Below are positions 8,068-15,287 of a stretch of DNA of 23,751 nt, one piece after another. The stretch comes from a virus. The stretch spans positions 1-23,751 of the IMG/VR virus record IMGVR_UViG_3300021092_000212. The stretch is one strand, 5' to 3'. The position numbers and the translations under genes were made by a program. Under the pieces are notes generated by a model. The model ran no database searches. It worked only from the letters and a program-made list of their open reading frames with translations, and was not told the origin of the DNA. The number at the start of each line of letters is the position of its first letter. The first letter of the stretch is position 1.

Positions 8068-8778
8068 GTGGCACCAATATCAGGATCCATATCAAATTTT
8101 CTAGAGGCGATTAATAATCAAAGCGGAATGTCCATGAGTAATGGATATGACGTTAATTTTCAGTTGCCATCTGCTTTAGCAGCAAAAATTAAAACAGATT
8201 GTGATATAAATTTGGCAGCACCTTCTGAAGTAAGTAAAGATAAGTTACTTACTATGTTATGTGATGAAGCTCAACTTCCAAGTATGCAGTCTGCTACTGG
8301 TCAAATTACTGGAAGATATCTTGGTGAAGCACAAATAAATTATGCTCACACAAAGATGTATTCTGATTTTTCTTTAGGATGGATGCTTGATGCAAATCTA
8401 ACAGCACTTAAATTCTTTAACAGTTGGTACTCATATATCTACAGTGGTAATACTGGAGAAAATGATGCTCCAAAAACATACTCTGGTAACAGATTAAGTA
8501 CGATTAAAACTGTTGCACCAAAAGTTTTAAATAGAAACATTCGCCTTAACTACCCAAAAGATTACATGGGTACAGTTAGAGTTACAAAAACTGAAAGAGG
8601 TGTGAACGCGCCCAATGCTAGAGCAGGAGTAATGTATATTCTAGAAGATTGTTTTCCTTACTCAATTGATGCTATTCCTCTGGCATATGGCACATCTCAA
8701 ATTACAAGATTAACAGTTAATTTCTATTATGCCAAGCACACTGTAGTGTATAACGACATCTCATCTTTTAACGGATAA
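8068..8778 (+). CDS. 54: gp54-like baseplate tail-tube initiator
   Basis: 236 residues from a GTG start (reads MAPISGSISNFLEAINN). It has the tail-tube fold pattern shared by gp19/gp54-like proteins: YDVNFQLPSALA, LCDEAQLPSMQSAT, the YSDFSLGWMLDANLTALKFFNSW helix and the C-terminal NRNIRLNYPKDYMGTVRVTKT strands. In T4, gp54 sits next to gp48 and both are needed to start the tube, and here it is divergent from the gp48 operon. It is shorter than T4 gp54 (320), so gp19-paralog tube protein is the alternative name. No good Shine-Dalgarno precedes the GTG. The stop TAA is inside the next late promoter. Confidence 0.7.
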   Translation: MAPISGSISNFLEAINNQSGMSMSNGYDVNFQLPSALAAKIKTDCDINLAAPSEVSKDKLLTMLCDEAQLPSMQSATGQITGRYLGEAQINYAHTKMYSDFSLGWMLDANLTALKFFNSWYSYIYSGNTGENDAPKTYSGNRLSTIKTVAPKVLNRNIRLNYPKDYMGTVRVTKTERGVNAPNARAGVMYILEDCFPYSIDAIPLAYGTSQITRLTVNFYYAKHTVVYNDISSFNG

Positions 8779-8781
8779 ATA
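8774..8781 (+). promoter_or_regulatory. late promoter motif for gp26
   Basis: GATAAATA fits NATAAATA and includes the TAA stop (8776-8778) of the gp54-like gene. The gp26 ATG follows 24 nt downstream, so the mRNA leader would be very short and without a clear Shine-Dalgarno. Confidence 0.7.
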
Positions 8782-8805
8782 CCTATACGAATTGAATAAA
8801 TTTTT

Positions 8806-9519
8806 ATGGCATTACCTAAAATTGGCATTCCAACTTTTGAATTAGAACTTCCTTCTACAGGTAAAACAATTAAGTATAGACCTTTTCTTGTAAAGGAAGA
8901 AAAAGTTTTACTGATAGCATTGGAATCTGAAGACGAGCAGCAGATCATTGCAGCGGTAAAAGATCTGATCAAAAATTGTGTAATCTCAAAAATCAAAGTA
9001 GAAGATCTTCCTGCTTTTGATCTTGAGTATCTATTTTTAATGATACGTGCAGCAGCTGTTGGAGAAATTCTTACAATGAATGTAACTTGTAAGGATGATG
9101 ATAAAACTAGAGTAGAGGTTAATATCAACATCAATGATGTAACTGTCAAAAAAGATCCTGAGCATACAAATAAGATCATGCTTACGGAAGATACTGGTAT
9201 TATTATGCGATACCCAAGTATGGATAGATTTATTGAAGCAGAATTTCTAGACAAAGATATTAAAACAGAAGAAGTATTTGATTTTCTTGCTGATCATGTG
9301 GATCAAATCTTCTTTGGGGAGGATGTATATGATTCATCTACCACATCTAAGAAAGAATTTAAAGATTGGATTGAGACATTAACAACAAAACAGTTTGAAG
9401 CAATTCAAAAGTTTTACGACACAATGCCAAAATTATCTCATACATTTACGGTCATTAATCCTAATACTGGTGTTAAATCTGAATATACGATTGAAGGTAT
9501 GCAAAATTTTTTCGCATAG
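8806..9519 (+). CDS. 26: gp26 baseplate hub protein / putative tail-assembly chaperone
   Basis: 237 residues: MALPKIGIPTFELELPSTGKTIKYRPFLVKEEK followed by acidic helices, the usual cyanophage gp26. The T4 protein is required for baseplate hub assembly. The first 50 residues resemble a beta-rich head that in many myophages opens the tail-chaperone family; the rest is helical. The 3' end contains a complete -1 frameshift signal (9507-9545) that would replace the last Ala and extend the protein by 61 residues. This suggests it acts as the short form of a G/GT-type chaperone pair that holds the tape measure. The chaperone role is inference. It has a short leader from the late promoter at 8774. 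Confidence 0.8.
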   Translation: MALPKIGIPTFELELPSTGKTIKYRPFLVKEEKVLLIALESEDEQQIIAAVKDLIKNCVISKIKVEDLPAFDLEYLFLMIRAAAVGEILTMNVTCKDDDKTRVEVNININDVTVKKDPEHTNKIMLTEDTGIIMRYPSMDRFIEAEFLDKDIKTEEVFDFLADHVDQIFFGEDVYDSSTTSKKEFKDWIETLTTKQFEAIQKFYDTMPKLSHTFTVINPNTGVKSEYTIEGMQNFFA

Positions 9520-9545
9520 CACTCTTCCAAAATAGTTTGGAAGGG
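9507..9545 (+). promoter_or_regulatory. programmed -1 ribosomal frameshift signal
   Basis: Slippery heptamer T_TTT_TTC at 9507-9513 in the gp26 frame (an overlapping A_AAT_TTT lies just 5'). An 8-nt spacer (9514-9521), which holds the zero-frame TAG at 9517-9519, is followed by a stem-loop. Its arms are CTCTTCCAAA (9522-9531) and TTTGGAAGGG (9536-9545) with loop ATAG, ten pairs including one G-U. Type and spacing match known -1 frameshift sites. Confidence 0.75.
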
Positions 9546-9698
9546 TATTTTAAAACAAACTTTGCTTTAATGCAGTATCATAAATATAGCTTGAGTGAAA
9601 TAGAACATCTTATGCCGTGGGAACGAGAAGTTTACACAGCATTGTTAGTGCAGTATATTCAAGAAGAAAAAGCAAAGCAAGAAGCTTCTAAACGTTAA
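9513..9698 (+). CDS. gp51-like / chaperone C-terminal extension, expressed by -1 frameshift from gp26
   Basis: An open -1 frame of 61 codons running from the slippery site to TAA 9696-9698: RIALFQNSLEGYFKTNFALM, HKYSLSEIEHLMPWEREVYT, then ALLVQYIQEEKAKQEASKR. The first ATG in this frame is at 9570, after the well-formed LFQNSLEGYFKTNFAL segment, so an independent start would lose it; fusion to gp26 (297 residues in total) is more likely. The W-E-R-E-x-Y...EE pattern is like the ends of chaperone T domains that contact the tape measure. In cyanophage annotations a short ORF here is sometimes called gp51. Its TAA abuts the ATG of the tape-measure-like gene. Confidence 0.7.
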   Translation, partial: RIALFQNSLEGYFKTNFALMQYHKYSLSEIEHLMPWEREVYTALLVQYIQEEKAKQEASKR

Positions 9699-12600
9699 AT
9701 GATAGATCCAGCACCAGCACCAGAAGGAATACTAGATCCCGAAAAACCTTATTGGTCTGCTGATAGGGTTGGCGAGGCAACTTGGTTGCGTCTCAAAGGT
9801 AATCTAACTGGTAGACGAGTAGAGGGGTTGAGCGAAAACTTCACATCCTATGTAAAACTTGGTGATGCTGATGCTGATAAGTTAATTGAAAACCTTAAAA
9901 AATGGGGTAAGTATCCTCAACTAAATCAGAAGGATAAGTCTGGTGGTGCATATAATGCTGAAGCATACCAGAAGTGGTTGGTAGAAGAGTTCCTTGAGAA
10001 ACCATTTAGAGAAGAAACAGATAAAAAGATTGAAGAAGCAGCAATACAATCTCGTCTTGATGAAATACAAAAGGAAAAGCAAAAGCAAAAAGAGCAAGCA
10101 GTACAAGTTGTTGTAGAGCAATCTGATCCTGAAGAAGTTGAAGAACAGGTAGATATTGCTACAGAAGTTTTAGAGGAAGCACAAGAAACAAATCAACAAG
10201 AAATTAATGAAGAGTTTTTTGAAGATATTCCTCTCAGTGTTAGACCAAATCTTGTAGATATTATTAATAAAAAAACAGGTCGTAACGTTACTCTTCCAGA
10301 TCAAGAAAAGAAAAAAGAAGGACATAGTAATGCAAAAATTTATAGGTATCTAACCTTAAATTTAACTAAAATTCAAAGTCAACTAGAAGTAATTGATAAA
10401 AAAATAACAGAGCAAAATGCTCTATTAAGGTCTAGTCTTTCTGTCTCTGTTGCAACCTACGAAAAAATTGAACTGGAAGATGCTAGATTAGAAAGTAAAT
10501 TTGATGGCATTTTGAGTGCAATTGAGGAGCAGAATGCACTAGCAAAAGAACTTGCTGACAAACAAGAAGATGCAGTAAGAAGAAGTGCTCTAAAAAATAA
10601 GAGAGACGCTGCAGGAACGGAAGGATATGCAGATACACGTGGAGATGGTGACGGATTATTACAAACACTTCTTAAATATTTTGGTAAGAAACTAGGGAAA
10701 TTTTTGTTTAAACGTTTATATAAACTTCTTCCAAAAGGATTACGATCAAGAATTAGACTTGGAGGAATGCTTCTTCGTAATCCTGCTCGCCTTCTTACCA
10801 AAAAACCAGCACAAAAACTTGCTGCAAAAGCTGCAACTCCTATGGTTGCAAAAGGATTTGAGCACATTGCTCTGCCTGGTGTAACAAGGAGAGCAACAGC
10901 AGGAACTCAAGGTGCAGCTAAAAAACTATCGACATCTGGAGGACAAAGTATTTTTGAGAGAGCGTTGAGAAGTAAACCAATTCAAAATGCTCTTATAAAA
11001 AAACTTGGTAAAGAAGGAGCAGAAAAATTAACAGTTAAAGTTGCTGCTAAATTAGTTCCTGGAATTTCTACTGCCTATGGATTGGGAGAAGGACTTGCAC
11101 GTATTGCAATGGGAGATGTGAAGGGTGGTTTCTTATCATTTGGAAGTGCAATACCTGTTGCTGGATGGGCGTTCGCTGCCATTGATATTCTTCGTGATAT
11201 TGATATTGCTGCATATACAAAGCATATTGAACCAAATCTTCCTGCTCCAAAAGATGAACATTTCGCAGCATTTTTTAGTGAAGCTTTAGGTGTTGGTCCA
11301 GATCAATATGAGATTGGATCTAAAGATGTAAGACCAGGAACCGCAATGCTCCATGGTACGGAGTGGGTAGGTAATAAAAATGAGATGAACAATTTACAGA
11401 ATGCTATTCCAAGTACGATAGGTGCATCTCTGTTAACATCAACTGCGTCATTTGTTCAGTCATTAGGGAGTGCAGGATCTACTGTTTCTCCAGAACTTAA
11501 TAAAGAACTTGCTTTACTTGCAGAAAAATTTGGTGTTAATCCTTCAATGGTTTCTACAAATGTTGGAGGATCTTTCTCTGGAGTTGGATCAAAGGTAGAA
11601 GATTTAGTATCGAGAACTGAAACTGGTGATGGGGGAGAATATGATGGATTAAGTTCTGCAGAGAAAAGTGTTTTTAAAAATTCAACGGGTGCTTCTTTTC
11701 AACAACGTATGCTTGCATTACTTAGAAGTCCTTTAGATGCAATCAAAGAAGCATTGAATAATCGAGGAGGACCTGGGGGTCCTACACCCGAAATTGATCC
11801 TTATACTGGACCTATTAGTGGAGAAACTTTTAATCCTCTTCCAGGAGGAGCAGCTGGAACAGGATCTGGTCAAGTTTTTGGTGCTTCTAGAGATGGTGGA
11901 AAGCGATCTCATGCTGGTGTTGATATGGTAGAGCACAAACAAAAAGATTCTAGAGCACCGATTGTTGCTTATAAAACAGGAAAAATTATTAAATCAAAAG
12001 CTTCAGATGCATATCCATATGGAGACATGGAAATAGATCATGGTGGTGGTTTGATTACTAGATATTTGCATGTTATTCCCAGACCAGATTTGAAAGTTGG
12101 TGATACAGTTTATGGTGGACAACAAATTGGCAGATTATATAGATATTTTGATGGTAGTACAGAGCAAACACACTTACATTTTGAGGTGTATAAAAATGGA
12201 AAGTTATTAAATCCTACTAGATTTGTAAAGGAAGCAAGAAATAATATTGCTAGTCCATTAGCTGATACTAGAGCAAAAGAAGAACACCTTAAAGCTTCTG
12301 GTCAAACTGCTGATGATGTACCGACAGCTGCAGGCAAACCAAAGGGATACGGAAAAATTGAAATGGAACAAGATGGAAAAATTTTACAAATAGCAGAATA
12401 TTTTTACGTAAATGGAAAATATTACGAGAGGACAACAGTAAACAATAAGACAACAACTAAAGAAATAAGCGAATCTGTATACAAATCAGTTAGAAATAAT
12501 CATGCTGCTTCTTTTGGATTAGAAAGCAATAAAGAATATACTCTGCCAAGTAAAGGTGAAGTAAAACAAGTTTCTCAAATTGCTCCTCCATCTAGATCAT

Positions 12601-12779
12601 CTTCTAGAACAGCTACAGAAATTGCATATGCAGCACCAGCAGATACAGAAGCATCTAGTACAATTATTTTAAATGCAGCACCACAAATGCCTGTCGCTAA
12701 TGGGTCTAGTGGTGGAGTTCAATATGTTCCAATTGAACAACAATTGAATATTACTGCAATGCGTTTAGCTACGGCATAA
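9699..12779 (+). CDS. large tape-measure-like tail protein with M23 peptidase domain
   Basis: 1026 residues; begins at TAAATG with no Shine-Dalgarno, so it is probably coupled to the frameshifted upstream frame. Residues 1-300 are Glu/Gln/Lys-rich coiled coil. From about 302 a module starting AAGTEGYADTRG, also found at the start of the next protein, is followed by basic helices and a hydrophobic stretch (about 450-505, LVPGISTAYGLGEGLARIAM and PVAGWAFAAIDIL) that could insert in a membrane. Residues about 725-845 form an M23/LytM zinc peptidase: HAGVDM (His738, Asp742) and HLHFEV (His825, His827), which would cut peptide cross-links of host peptidoglycan. Its position after the chaperone pair and before gp27 matches a tape measure (T4 gp29 position). 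The tail is Ser/Thr/Ala-rich. Confidence 0.75.
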   Translation: MIDPAPAPEGILDPEKPYWSADRVGEATWLRLKGNLTGRRVEGLSENFTSYVKLGDADADKLIENLKKWGKYPQLNQKDKSGGAYNAEAYQKWLVEEFLEKPFREETDKKIEEAAIQSRLDEIQKEKQKQKEQAVQVVVEQSDPEEVEEQVDIATEVLEEAQETNQQEINEEFFEDIPLSVRPNLVDIINKKTGRNVTLPDQEKKKEGHSNAKIYRYLTLNLTKIQSQLEVIDKKITEQNALLRSSLSVSVATYEKIELEDARLESKFDGILSAIEEQNALAKELADKQEDAVRRSALKNKRDAAGTEGYADTRGDGDGLLQTLLKYFGKKLGKFLFKRLYKLLPKGLRSRIRLGGMLLRNPARLLTKKPAQKLAAKAATPMVAKGFEHIALPGVTRRATAGTQGAAKKLSTSGGQSIFERALRSKPIQNALIKKLGKEGAEKLTVKVAAKLVPGISTAYGLGEGLARIAMGDVKGGFLSFGSAIPVAGWAFAAIDILRDIDIAAYTKHIEPNLPAPKDEHFAAFFSEALGVGPDQYEIGSKDVRPGTAMLHGTEWVGNKNEMNNLQNAIPSTIGASLLTSTASFVQSLGSAGSTVSPELNKELALLAEKFGVNPSMVSTNVGGSFSGVGSKVEDLVSRTETGDGGEYDGLSSAEKSVFKNSTGASFQQRMLALLRSPLDAIKEALNNRGGPGGPTPEIDPYTGPISGETFNPLPGGAAGTGSGQVFGASRDGGKRSHAGVDMVEHKQKDSRAPIVAYKTGKIIKSKASDAYPYGDMEIDHGGGLITRYLHVIPRPDLKVGDTVYGGQQIGRLYRYFDGSTEQTHLHFEVYKNGKLLNPTRFVKEARNNIASPLADTRAKEEHLKASGQTADDVPTAAGKPKGYGKIEMEQDGKILQIAEYFYVNGKYYERTTVNNKTTTKEISESVYKSVRNNHAASFGLESNKEYTLPSKGEVKQVSQIAPPSRSSSRTATEIAYAAPADTEASSTIILNAAPQMPVANGSSGGVQYVPIEQQLNITAMRLATA

Positions 12780-12803: not shown

Positions 12804-15287
12804 ATGGCTGCAGGAACAGAAGGATACGTAGATACTAGAGGTAGCGTAAATCCTATTGCATCTGTTATCTCAAAGATACTTGCTGCCAGACAGATGGCAG
12901 AAGAAGAGAGACAGTATGCATCTGATATTGCAGAAGCAAATCAAACATCTTTAGAAGAAGCAGGAATTGAAAAAGGTTTCTTCTTTAAAAAAGCATTAGC
13001 GCATGAATTTGGTGGAGATTACATTGGTAGTAAGAAAGAAGATTTAAATAATCTCGTCGAGCGTGCAAAATTATTAAAAAACCCAAGACAAAATTTTTGG
13101 CAACTATTTAAGAAACAAAAGAAGTCAACAAAACTACAGAGATTTAAGGCAAAGTTTGATTATGCCGTAGAAATTGATGATCCAATGACACGACCAATGT
13201 CTCCTGTAACTGGAGGCAGTGCTCGTAAGGTACAAAAAGCAACTAGAGGATCTGGAAAAAGAATTAGTAAAGAACAACTACTAGAATCTTTAAATAGTTT
13301 AGTAGGTTCTTTGCAATCTATTAGTTCTTCTCTCAATGAAACAACATCACAATCATCAAAGAGTATTAATGCTGTTGCCGAATCACAATTACAATTAGCA
13401 GAACAATTAAAAACCAGAACTGATACTCTTGAAGACAAGTTAGATAAAATTGCTGCAGCAATTTCAAAGCAAACTCAATTCCAAAAAGTATCAATTGATA
13501 AAGCAGAAGATGTAGAACACGAAAAATCTTTAGACAAAGTTACTGATACAGCAACTGTAAGTGGATTTGATGATCTTAGTACAAAGGAGAATGAACTAGC
13601 AAGACCAACTGGTTTTGAACATATAGCTTTGCCAGGAAATATACCAGAAGCAGAGACTGGTGCTATACTTTCTGGTCCTGATAGCGGATACTTAGCGAAG
13701 TTACATGGCGATGAGATGGTTGTTCCTCTTAACAACAACTATACTCAAGGTCAACCAAGTGCAATGGATGGAAAGGTTAGACCAAAACCTTATCAATCCA
13801 GAAGACAATCATTTGAAATAGGATCTAAACCAGTTCCTGGTGTTAGTGCGGCATCACCTATGGGAACTGGTATCGTTAACTTGGGTGGCAGCACTAATCA
13901 ATTTATGAATGAAAGTTTGGTTAGAGCAATGGAACTACCGATGAAAGCAGTTGGCGGAGCAGTCATTTCATCAACTTCAAAATACATTGGAGCATTAGGT
14001 GGGCAGGCAGGTGGATTAGATAATGATTTGCAATCTCTTATTAGACCCGTTGCTGCAGTATTTGGATTGCCTCCATCATTTGCAAAGAGTGCTGCTGGAA
14101 CTGGTGCTAAAGAAGCAGAAGTACCAGCACCAGTAGAAAAGAAAGATGAGGGTCGTGGTGGTATCCTAGCAAAGATGTTAGAAACTTTTGAGACAGTATT
14201 AAAAGGTCTTGCTGATACTATTAATGAAAGCAATCCTCCTGGTCCTGGTCCTGGTCCCGATGGTGATTTATTAATTCCAGGTGATGCACCACCAGAAATT
14301 AAAGCATTGATGGAAACTATATCTGGTGGAGAGGGAGGACCAAACTCTGTAAATAATGTCGGAGAAGTTAAAGGTCTTTCTGACATGACTATTGATCAAG
14401 CAATTTCTAAGGGCCTGGAGTTAAAGGAACAAGGATTATCATCTGGAGCTCTTGGTGCATATCAATTCATGCCACAATACTTAAAAGAAAGAGCAGAAAA
14501 AGCAGGTCTTGATACATCAAAAGATAAATTTAGCATGGAAAATCAAACAAAAATTATGAGAACTTTTATGGTAGGTCTTTATGGACAAACTGAAGCAACC
14601 ATGGTTCGTCATTTAAAGGAAGGAAAATTAGAATCACATATTTTTCCAAAACTTGCTAAAGATTCTGGATGGCCTTCTCTTCCTGGTGGTAGTCAACCAA
14701 ATGTTCACACTCCTCACGCAGCAAAAAGATATGAAGCAAAACTAAAAAAATATCAACAAATTGCAGCATCTCCTGCTGCTCCACCGCCTTCTGCAGGAAT
14801 TGATCCAGCTAAAACTGAAGCAAGAGTAGAAAGTCTTAAAAAATTCTTGTCTTCTTCTAAGCCTGGAGATGGGACATCATTCCAGATACCAGAGTTGGGA
14901 GTATCTTATGTGAGAGGAAAAGATTTGTTTGGAAAACAAGTTGACAAATTAATTAGTACACGAGATGGAAAGACATTAATTTTCTCTGGGTCTAGTCAAG
15001 CTGTGAGACAAAAAATTACAGAACTCCTTGAGAAGAAAGGATTGCCATCTATAAATCCTCCTACTCCAAAACCAGAGAAAAATCCAGAGACTGCTTCTGC
15101 AAGAGCAGAGATGTTAAAACCAGATGCAAAAACTGGAAACGGATCTACTGCTATTGCAATGTTAAATACTAATGGATCTCCTGTGACAGATACTTCTACA
15201 CCTCCTGGTGCAGATAATCTTGCAATTGATAGAGGAGTTCCTGATCGTTCGTACAGAGATTTTTACCCCAATAAAGCAATCGGATAA
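12804..15287 (+). CDS. second tape-measure-like protein with lysozyme/transglycosylase-like domain
   Basis: 827 residues, start fixed by GGAGA at 12791-12795. It is a divergent paralog of the preceding protein. Shared features are AAGTEGYVDTRG at residues 2-13, GFEHIALPG, the LHGDEMVVPLNN motif (LHGTEWV in the partner), FEIGSKPVPG, and a segment with the pattern A(S/V)..STSKYIGALG...LPPSF. Residues about 155-235 are coiled coil (SLNSLVGSLQSISSSLNETT). Residues about 505-640 look like a muramidase/lytic transglycosylase fold: Glu510 in SGGEGGPNSVN is the candidate catalytic acid and GALGAYQFMP (548-557) the usual substrate-cleft motif. It may help the tail pierce the cell wall. A gp29-type role is inferred from position. 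Confidence 0.65.
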   Translation: MAAGTEGYVDTRGSVNPIASVISKILAARQMAEEERQYASDIAEANQTSLEEAGIEKGFFFKKALAHEFGGDYIGSKKEDLNNLVERAKLLKNPRQNFWQLFKKQKKSTKLQRFKAKFDYAVEIDDPMTRPMSPVTGGSARKVQKATRGSGKRISKEQLLESLNSLVGSLQSISSSLNETTSQSSKSINAVAESQLQLAEQLKTRTDTLEDKLDKIAAAISKQTQFQKVSIDKAEDVEHEKSLDKVTDTATVSGFDDLSTKENELARPTGFEHIALPGNIPEAETGAILSGPDSGYLAKLHGDEMVVPLNNNYTQGQPSAMDGKVRPKPYQSRRQSFEIGSKPVPGVSAASPMGTGIVNLGGSTNQFMNESLVRAMELPMKAVGGAVISSTSKYIGALGGQAGGLDNDLQSLIRPVAAVFGLPPSFAKSAAGTGAKEAEVPAPVEKKDEGRGGILAKMLETFETVLKGLADTINESNPPGPGPGPDGDLLIPGDAPPEIKALMETISGGEGGPNSVNNVGEVKGLSDMTIDQAISKGLELKEQGLSSGALGAYQFMPQYLKERAEKAGLDTSKDKFSMENQTKIMRTFMVGLYGQTEATMVRHLKEGKLESHIFPKLAKDSGWPSLPGGSQPNVHTPHAAKRYEAKLKKYQQIAASPAAPPPSAGIDPAKTEARVESLKKFLSSSKPGDGTSFQIPELGVSYVRGKDLFGKQVDKLISTRDGKTLIFSGSSQAVRQKITELLEKKGLPSINPPTPKPEKNPETASARAEMLKPDAKTGNGSTAIAMLNTNGSPVTDTSTPPGADNLAIDRGVPDRSYRDFYPNKAIG

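Follow-up and report, generated by a model that had tools for sequence, protein, structure and literature searches.

One gene of a virus infecting marine bacteria very probably yields a tail-building helper protein in two sizes

Introduction

Many tailed phages are known to obtain a second, longer protein through a backward slip of the ribosome by one base. Lambda G/GT and related pairs of a short and a long tail assembly chaperone (TAC-N and TAC-NC) were reportedly treated by Xu, Hendrix & Duda in 2004.

T4 gp26 and gp51 are listed as hub assembly chaperones (PMC3004832), and the TAC genes of T4-like phages were, according to papers that cite the work, identified by Vladimirov, Gautam & Davidson in 2022 (Virology 566:9-15). 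As cited in PMC10885494, that study reports that some T4-like phages have a short gene and a long fusion copy, not frameshifting, and PMC12846349 gives it as the source for poly-T slippery sites in the TAC-N genes of these phages. A TAC frameshift of Vandenendeviridae and Andersonviridae (phage Adele) with the motif GTTTTT is described in PMC12846349 itself.

Here we present an analysis of the gp26 junction in a virus record of 23,751 bases, the whole of which is referred to as the window. Like lambda G/GT, the locus would supply a short protein and a rarer -1 extension, and it is flanked upstream by a tail tube gene and downstream, where a tape-measure gene would be expected, by a long gene. 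The slippery heptamer is T_TTT_TTC here and G_GGA_AAG in lambda; further differences from lambda are the size of gp26 (about 240 aa, with domains beyond a TAC-like part of about 90 residues) and the presence of a downstream stem-loop. The gp26 family and the C-terminal domain of the long form are shared with the T4-like TACs, but unlike in the Tevenvirinae, where T4 has gp51 as a second gene and no heptamer, the long form is predicted to arise here by -1 frameshifting. As in the Adele-type TACs, an invariant poly-T slip motif ends TAC-N, the -1 frame is open in all genomes and the extension is annotated as hypothetical, with TTTTTTC in place of the Adele motif. The original prediction that gp26 and gp51 represent one chaperone system is supported but not new, since the TAC genes of T4-like phages had been published in 2022 (Vladimirov et al., as the citing papers report).

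Features of the junction

The features of the locus are listed in Table 1. In the zero frame gp26 ends with ATG CAA AAT TTT TTC GCA TAG (9499-9519, read from the sequence). The original prediction of an in-frame heptamer followed, after an 8-nt spacer that holds the stop, by a 10-bp stem is borne out: the spacer occupies 9514-9521 and the stem 9522-9531/9536-9545, to which the predicted fold adds A9521-U9546 as an eleventh pair. The minimum free energy of this stem-loop has a z-score of -3.2, none of 200 shuffled sequences is equally stable, and none of the sampled 40-nt segments of the same locus folds as well. Read from CGC at 9513, the -1 frame continues through 61 codons (9513-9695) and ends with TAA (9696-9698), which directly abuts ATG 9699, as had been claimed; the predicted translation of the fusion likewise has the proposed length of 297 residues. 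The extension was said to lack a start codon before its well-formed segment, and no AUG or GUG is present near the junction. The sole start-like codon in the -1 frame before ATG 9570 is TTG 9537, which lies within the conserved SLEG segment and has, as read from the sequence, no Shine-Dalgarno-like sequence at usable distance. A sequencing error as the source of the split frame is ruled out by more than 80 loci.

Table 1. Features of the gp26 locus in the window
Feature	Position	Strand	Description and evidence
Tail tube protein gene, directly upstream	8068-8778	+	PF23849 E 1.7e-50; phrog_45 tail tube E 2e-42
gp26, short form (TAC-N candidate)	8806-9519	+	237 aa; PF12322 T4_baseplate E 1.5e-68; phrog_150 E 5e-75
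Predicted frameshift fusion (TAC-NC candidate)	8806-9698	+	297 aa; colinear with the T4 gp51 family
Slippery heptamer T_TTT_TTC	9507-9513	+	in the gp26 frame, X_XXY_YYZ phasing; T_TTT_TTN in 81/84 non-redundant loci
-1 frame extension (TAC-C candidate)	9513-9698	+	61 codons RIALFQNSLEGYF...EASKR, then TAA; phrog_634 E 1.9e-25
Zero-frame stop TAG	9517-9519	+	inside the spacer, 3 nt past the heptamer
Stem-loop, candidate stimulator	9521-9546	+	11 bp, loop ATAG, 7-8 nt past the heptamer
Downstream 1026-aa gene, tape-measure candidate	9699-12779	+	position, size; M23 peptidase domain PF01551 E 1.4e-14

Conservation among relatives

The relatives comprise 80 IMG/VR sequences (gp26 48-70% identical), a dozen annotated phages and further loci; the non-redundant set holds 84 sequences with less than 90% identity. 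In this set the heptamer T_TTT_TTN is kept in phase at 81 gp26 loci (75 TTC, 4 TTT and 2 TTG), and the three loci without a perfect heptamer are Ackermannviridae types. The codon preceding Phe-Phe varies in meaning among Ser, Asn, Ala, Gly and Asp, yet ends in T in 69/69 cyanophage-type loci; the two Phe codons are TTT and then TTC in all 69, and elsewhere in gp26 74% of the Phe codons are TTT. Such fixed synonymous choices would be unexpected at this protein divergence without selection. Judged from these alignments the heptamer is more than a chance occurrence, a statement to which no formal probability is attached because the loci are related by descent.

The zero-frame stop lies at +10 from the heptamer start in 67/68 cyanophage-type loci, and the extension measures 56-66 aa in all complete loci. 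The same geometry is found in the annotated phages S-CAM1, S-PM2, P-SSM2, Melnitz and Mosig and in KVP40-like, Aeromonas and Rhizobium phages, and the cassette is kept in KVP40-like, Aeromonas PX29, Rhizobium, Sinorhizobium, Stenotrophomonas and Pelagibacter phages. Alignment of the junction across relatives, proposed together with the original prediction as a check, thus returned a conserved heptamer, stop position and open -1 frame (56-66 codons), and downstream structure with covariation.

Some loci deviate. Pelagibacter phage Mosig has its stop 31 nt, not 10 nt, from the heptamer start, which gives a longer gp26 tail. Two Ackermannviridae loci (L092 and L118) carry GATTTTC in place of the heptamer; in the former, CbA120, a -1 ORF with a similar C-terminal pattern is still open, so that the long form may be made differently there.

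An extra U added by RNA polymerase on the T run would also bring a minority of transcripts into the fusion frame, and a T6 run is present here (T8 in HTVC008M, Melnitz and locus L103). This transcriptional slippage is extremely unlikely as the explanation: in bacteria it usually requires longer runs, and nearly every locus has exactly T6 followed by C, in X_XXY_YYZ phase and with an RNA stem at frameshift spacing.

Averaged over 81 loci, the folding energy of 40-nt segments is lowest, at -8.8 kcal/mol, for the segment starting 10 nt past the heptamer start, with means of -2.5 to -6 kcal/mol for most neighboring segments. The stem of the window was followed over 12 relatives, where 95.5% of cells are paired and one C-G to G-C compensatory pair occurs. 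In all, three clades with different stem registers each have 92-99% of cells paired, with compensatory changes of C-G to G-C in one, U-A to G-C in another, and G-C to A-U and C-G to U-A in the third; with few such changes, and among related sequences, the covariation lends support but does not amount to proof. A single homologous stem for all clades was rejected, as the register shifts between clades. The stem of the window lies within the 5-9 nt expected of a stimulatory structure and is a candidate stimulator; in some clades the structure is weaker or absent (about 15 loci lack a strong stem and show little structure).

Among 68 compared genomes, substitutions ahead of the heptamer fall on third positions of the zero frame, and beginning with the very next codon mostly on third positions of the -1 frame. 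The first codon after the slip encodes Arg in 66/68 genomes and Gln in 2/68, where the zero-frame codon is one for Ala, Gly, Val or Ser, and the second encodes Ile, Val or Leu in 68/68, where the zero frame has a stop in 67/68. This shift of constraint, as would be seen at a programmed -1 frameshift cassette, indicates that the -1 frame is translated from the heptamer onward, ahead of any AUG.

Alternatively, the extension could be a small protein of its own, as gp51 is annotated, made by ribosomes that terminate at the end of gp26 and restart just past it. About half of the relatives do have an in-frame AUG 5 nt after the stop, TGATG or TAATG overlaps occur in Stenotrophomonas, Rhizobium and KVP40-like phages, and databases annotate gp51 from such restart-type starts. 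Restart is nevertheless very improbable as the source of the extension. The window and 29 other non-redundant loci, i.e., 30 of 81, contain no ATG or GTG in the -1 frame between the upstream stop and 12 codons past the slip site; at AUG-less loci annotators omit the gene (S-CAM1) or use an inner ATG that truncates it (S-CAM3). The codons of the -1 frame ahead of the AUG position are conserved from the heptamer onward, and restart has no need of an invariant T_TTT_TTC.

The public record of S-CAM1 has no annotated extension gene, those of S-CAM3 and S-RIM8 begin it at inner starts, which in S-CAM3 removes conserved residues, and in that of Sf-FR1 the ORF begins at the stop overlap; the frameshift is marked in none of the public records inspected. 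An ATG of the -1 frame overlaps the gp26 stop in Stenotrophomonas (L087), Rhizobium (L088), KVP40-like (L089) and Vibrio VAP7 (L091) phages, and it is accompanied by the heptamer in the first three, not in Vibrio VAP7. At loci with an AUG near or overlapping the stop, restart may add a product. It is unlikely, though worth noting, that about half of the relatives make three products, with restart at the AUG giving a free C-terminal domain in addition to TAC-N from termination and TAC-NC from frameshifting; if true, such loci would be an extant intermediate stage between making chaperone parts by frameshifting and encoding them separately.

Comparison with T4 gp51

Genes 26 and 51 of T4 lie on opposite strands. 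The control set consisted of nine Straboviridae, T4 among them, that share this arrangement and have a full-length gp51 as a separate gene. The heptamer is missing from gp26 in all nine, with Phe-Phe spelled TTC TTT or TTC TTC, or replaced. The slip site is absent exactly where the long form has its own gene, and the Straboviridae thus agree as a natural negative control.

An accidental combination of a conserved Phe-Phe ending with an unrelated overlapping ORF, without programmed slippage, might be argued from T4 gp26, which retains Phe-Phe without frameshifting. The T4-type gp26 genes, however, use the spellings without the heptamer, and the fixed synonymous choices, the fixed stop and the selection on the -1 frame across 68 genomes speak against an accident, to which we give hardly any probability.

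The nine gp51 proteins are colinear with the whole fusion of gp26 and extension (hhalign 99.3%, E 3.7e-20) and share with the cyanophage fusion the C-terminal motif YSL..I..M(I/L)P.ER. The extension had been called gp51-like, which holds for its match to the C-terminal end of gp51; alone it matches only that end, and T4 gp51 equals the whole fusion, the only form colinear over the full length. On this sequence comparison gp51 is the T4 version of the long form, carried as a gene separate from gene 26.

Protein families and structure

PF12322 spans residues 9-237 of gp26, and T4 gp26 matches the protein of the window with an hhalign E-value of 2.5e-17, which places it in the T4 gp26 family. The AlphaFold2 model of gp26 is of high confidence (pLDDT 88.8). 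Residues 1-90, re-aligned to solved structures, match 2ob9 (HK97 TAC, Z 6.7), 3klu (YqbN, 6.7) and 3fgx (RBSTP2171, 6.2), the latter two of which come from phage-like elements and are, we take it, members of TAC families; a satellite protein (5ir0, Z 4.8) follows, and then unrelated chains (3.2). A Z of 6.7 is moderate and within the range that can reflect a common arrangement, so that the specificity of the match list is what counts. The solved structures that come closest to the modeled N-terminal domain of gp26 are tail assembly chaperones. A Foldseek search of gp26 against the PDB gave by itself no significant match, and a profile search against PDB sequences no credible one.

For PDB 5ir0, which is ORF19 of a PICI-like element from Vibrio cholerae, the alignment covers gp26 residues 6-91 in the TAC-like domain; a phage satellite may carry a TAC-like protein.

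The extension is modeled as three helices (pLDDT 82); its matches to HIV gp41 coiled-coil sequences in the PDB look like an effect of helix composition. The short form and the predicted, C-terminally extended long form have the arrangement of a TAC pair.

Neighboring genes

The gp26 cassette lies between the tail tube gene and the 1026-aa gene, which is a tape-measure candidate by position and size only. The 1026-aa product has one hydrophobic segment near residue 477 and matches what is annotated as the HTVC008M tape measure only weakly; no similarity to T4 gp29 was found. It shows weak repeated similarity, and a shared AAGTEGYxDTRG segment, to the product of the gene at 12804-15287, and the repeats suggest a tail gene duplication. 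At 8774-8782, overlapping the tail tube stop just upstream of gp26, GATAAATAC resembles a T4-type late promoter box (candidate).

Proposed mechanism and significance

We put the probability at roughly 0.92, as judged from sequence, that programmed -1 ribosomal frameshifting takes place at the junction and gives gp26 and a 297-aa long form. Most ribosomes would terminate at TAG 9517 and release the short form, and a minority would slip back one base on T_TTT_TTC, where the P- and A-site tRNA-Phe would re-pair from TTT TTC to TTT TTT. The stem-loop would help slippage, and reading would continue for 61 codons. That slippage takes place, and at what efficiency and ratio, we infer from sequence features.

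Conserved heptamer, frame switch, RNA folding, the Straboviridae control and the N-terminal fold match together make TAC-N and TAC-NC the most likely identities of gp26 and the extended gp26. The G/GT-like pairing of the original prediction is upheld by the first three of these and by the 30/81 loci without AUG or GUG. If lambda G/GT is a guide, the tape-measure protein would be coated by short forms as the tail is assembled, and the long form would bring in the subunits of the tail tube.

Frameshifting would explain why databases lack the cyanophage 'baseplate hub assembly catalyst' or give it a wrong start. To the general idea, in print since 2022, the present analysis adds support from the broad conservation, the exactness of the frame switch and the stems of individual clades. 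The genetically known, mechanistically obscure T4 pair gp26/gp51 would be tied to the lambda-type chaperone system, and related phages would reach the same long form by two routes, frameshifting or gene duplication.
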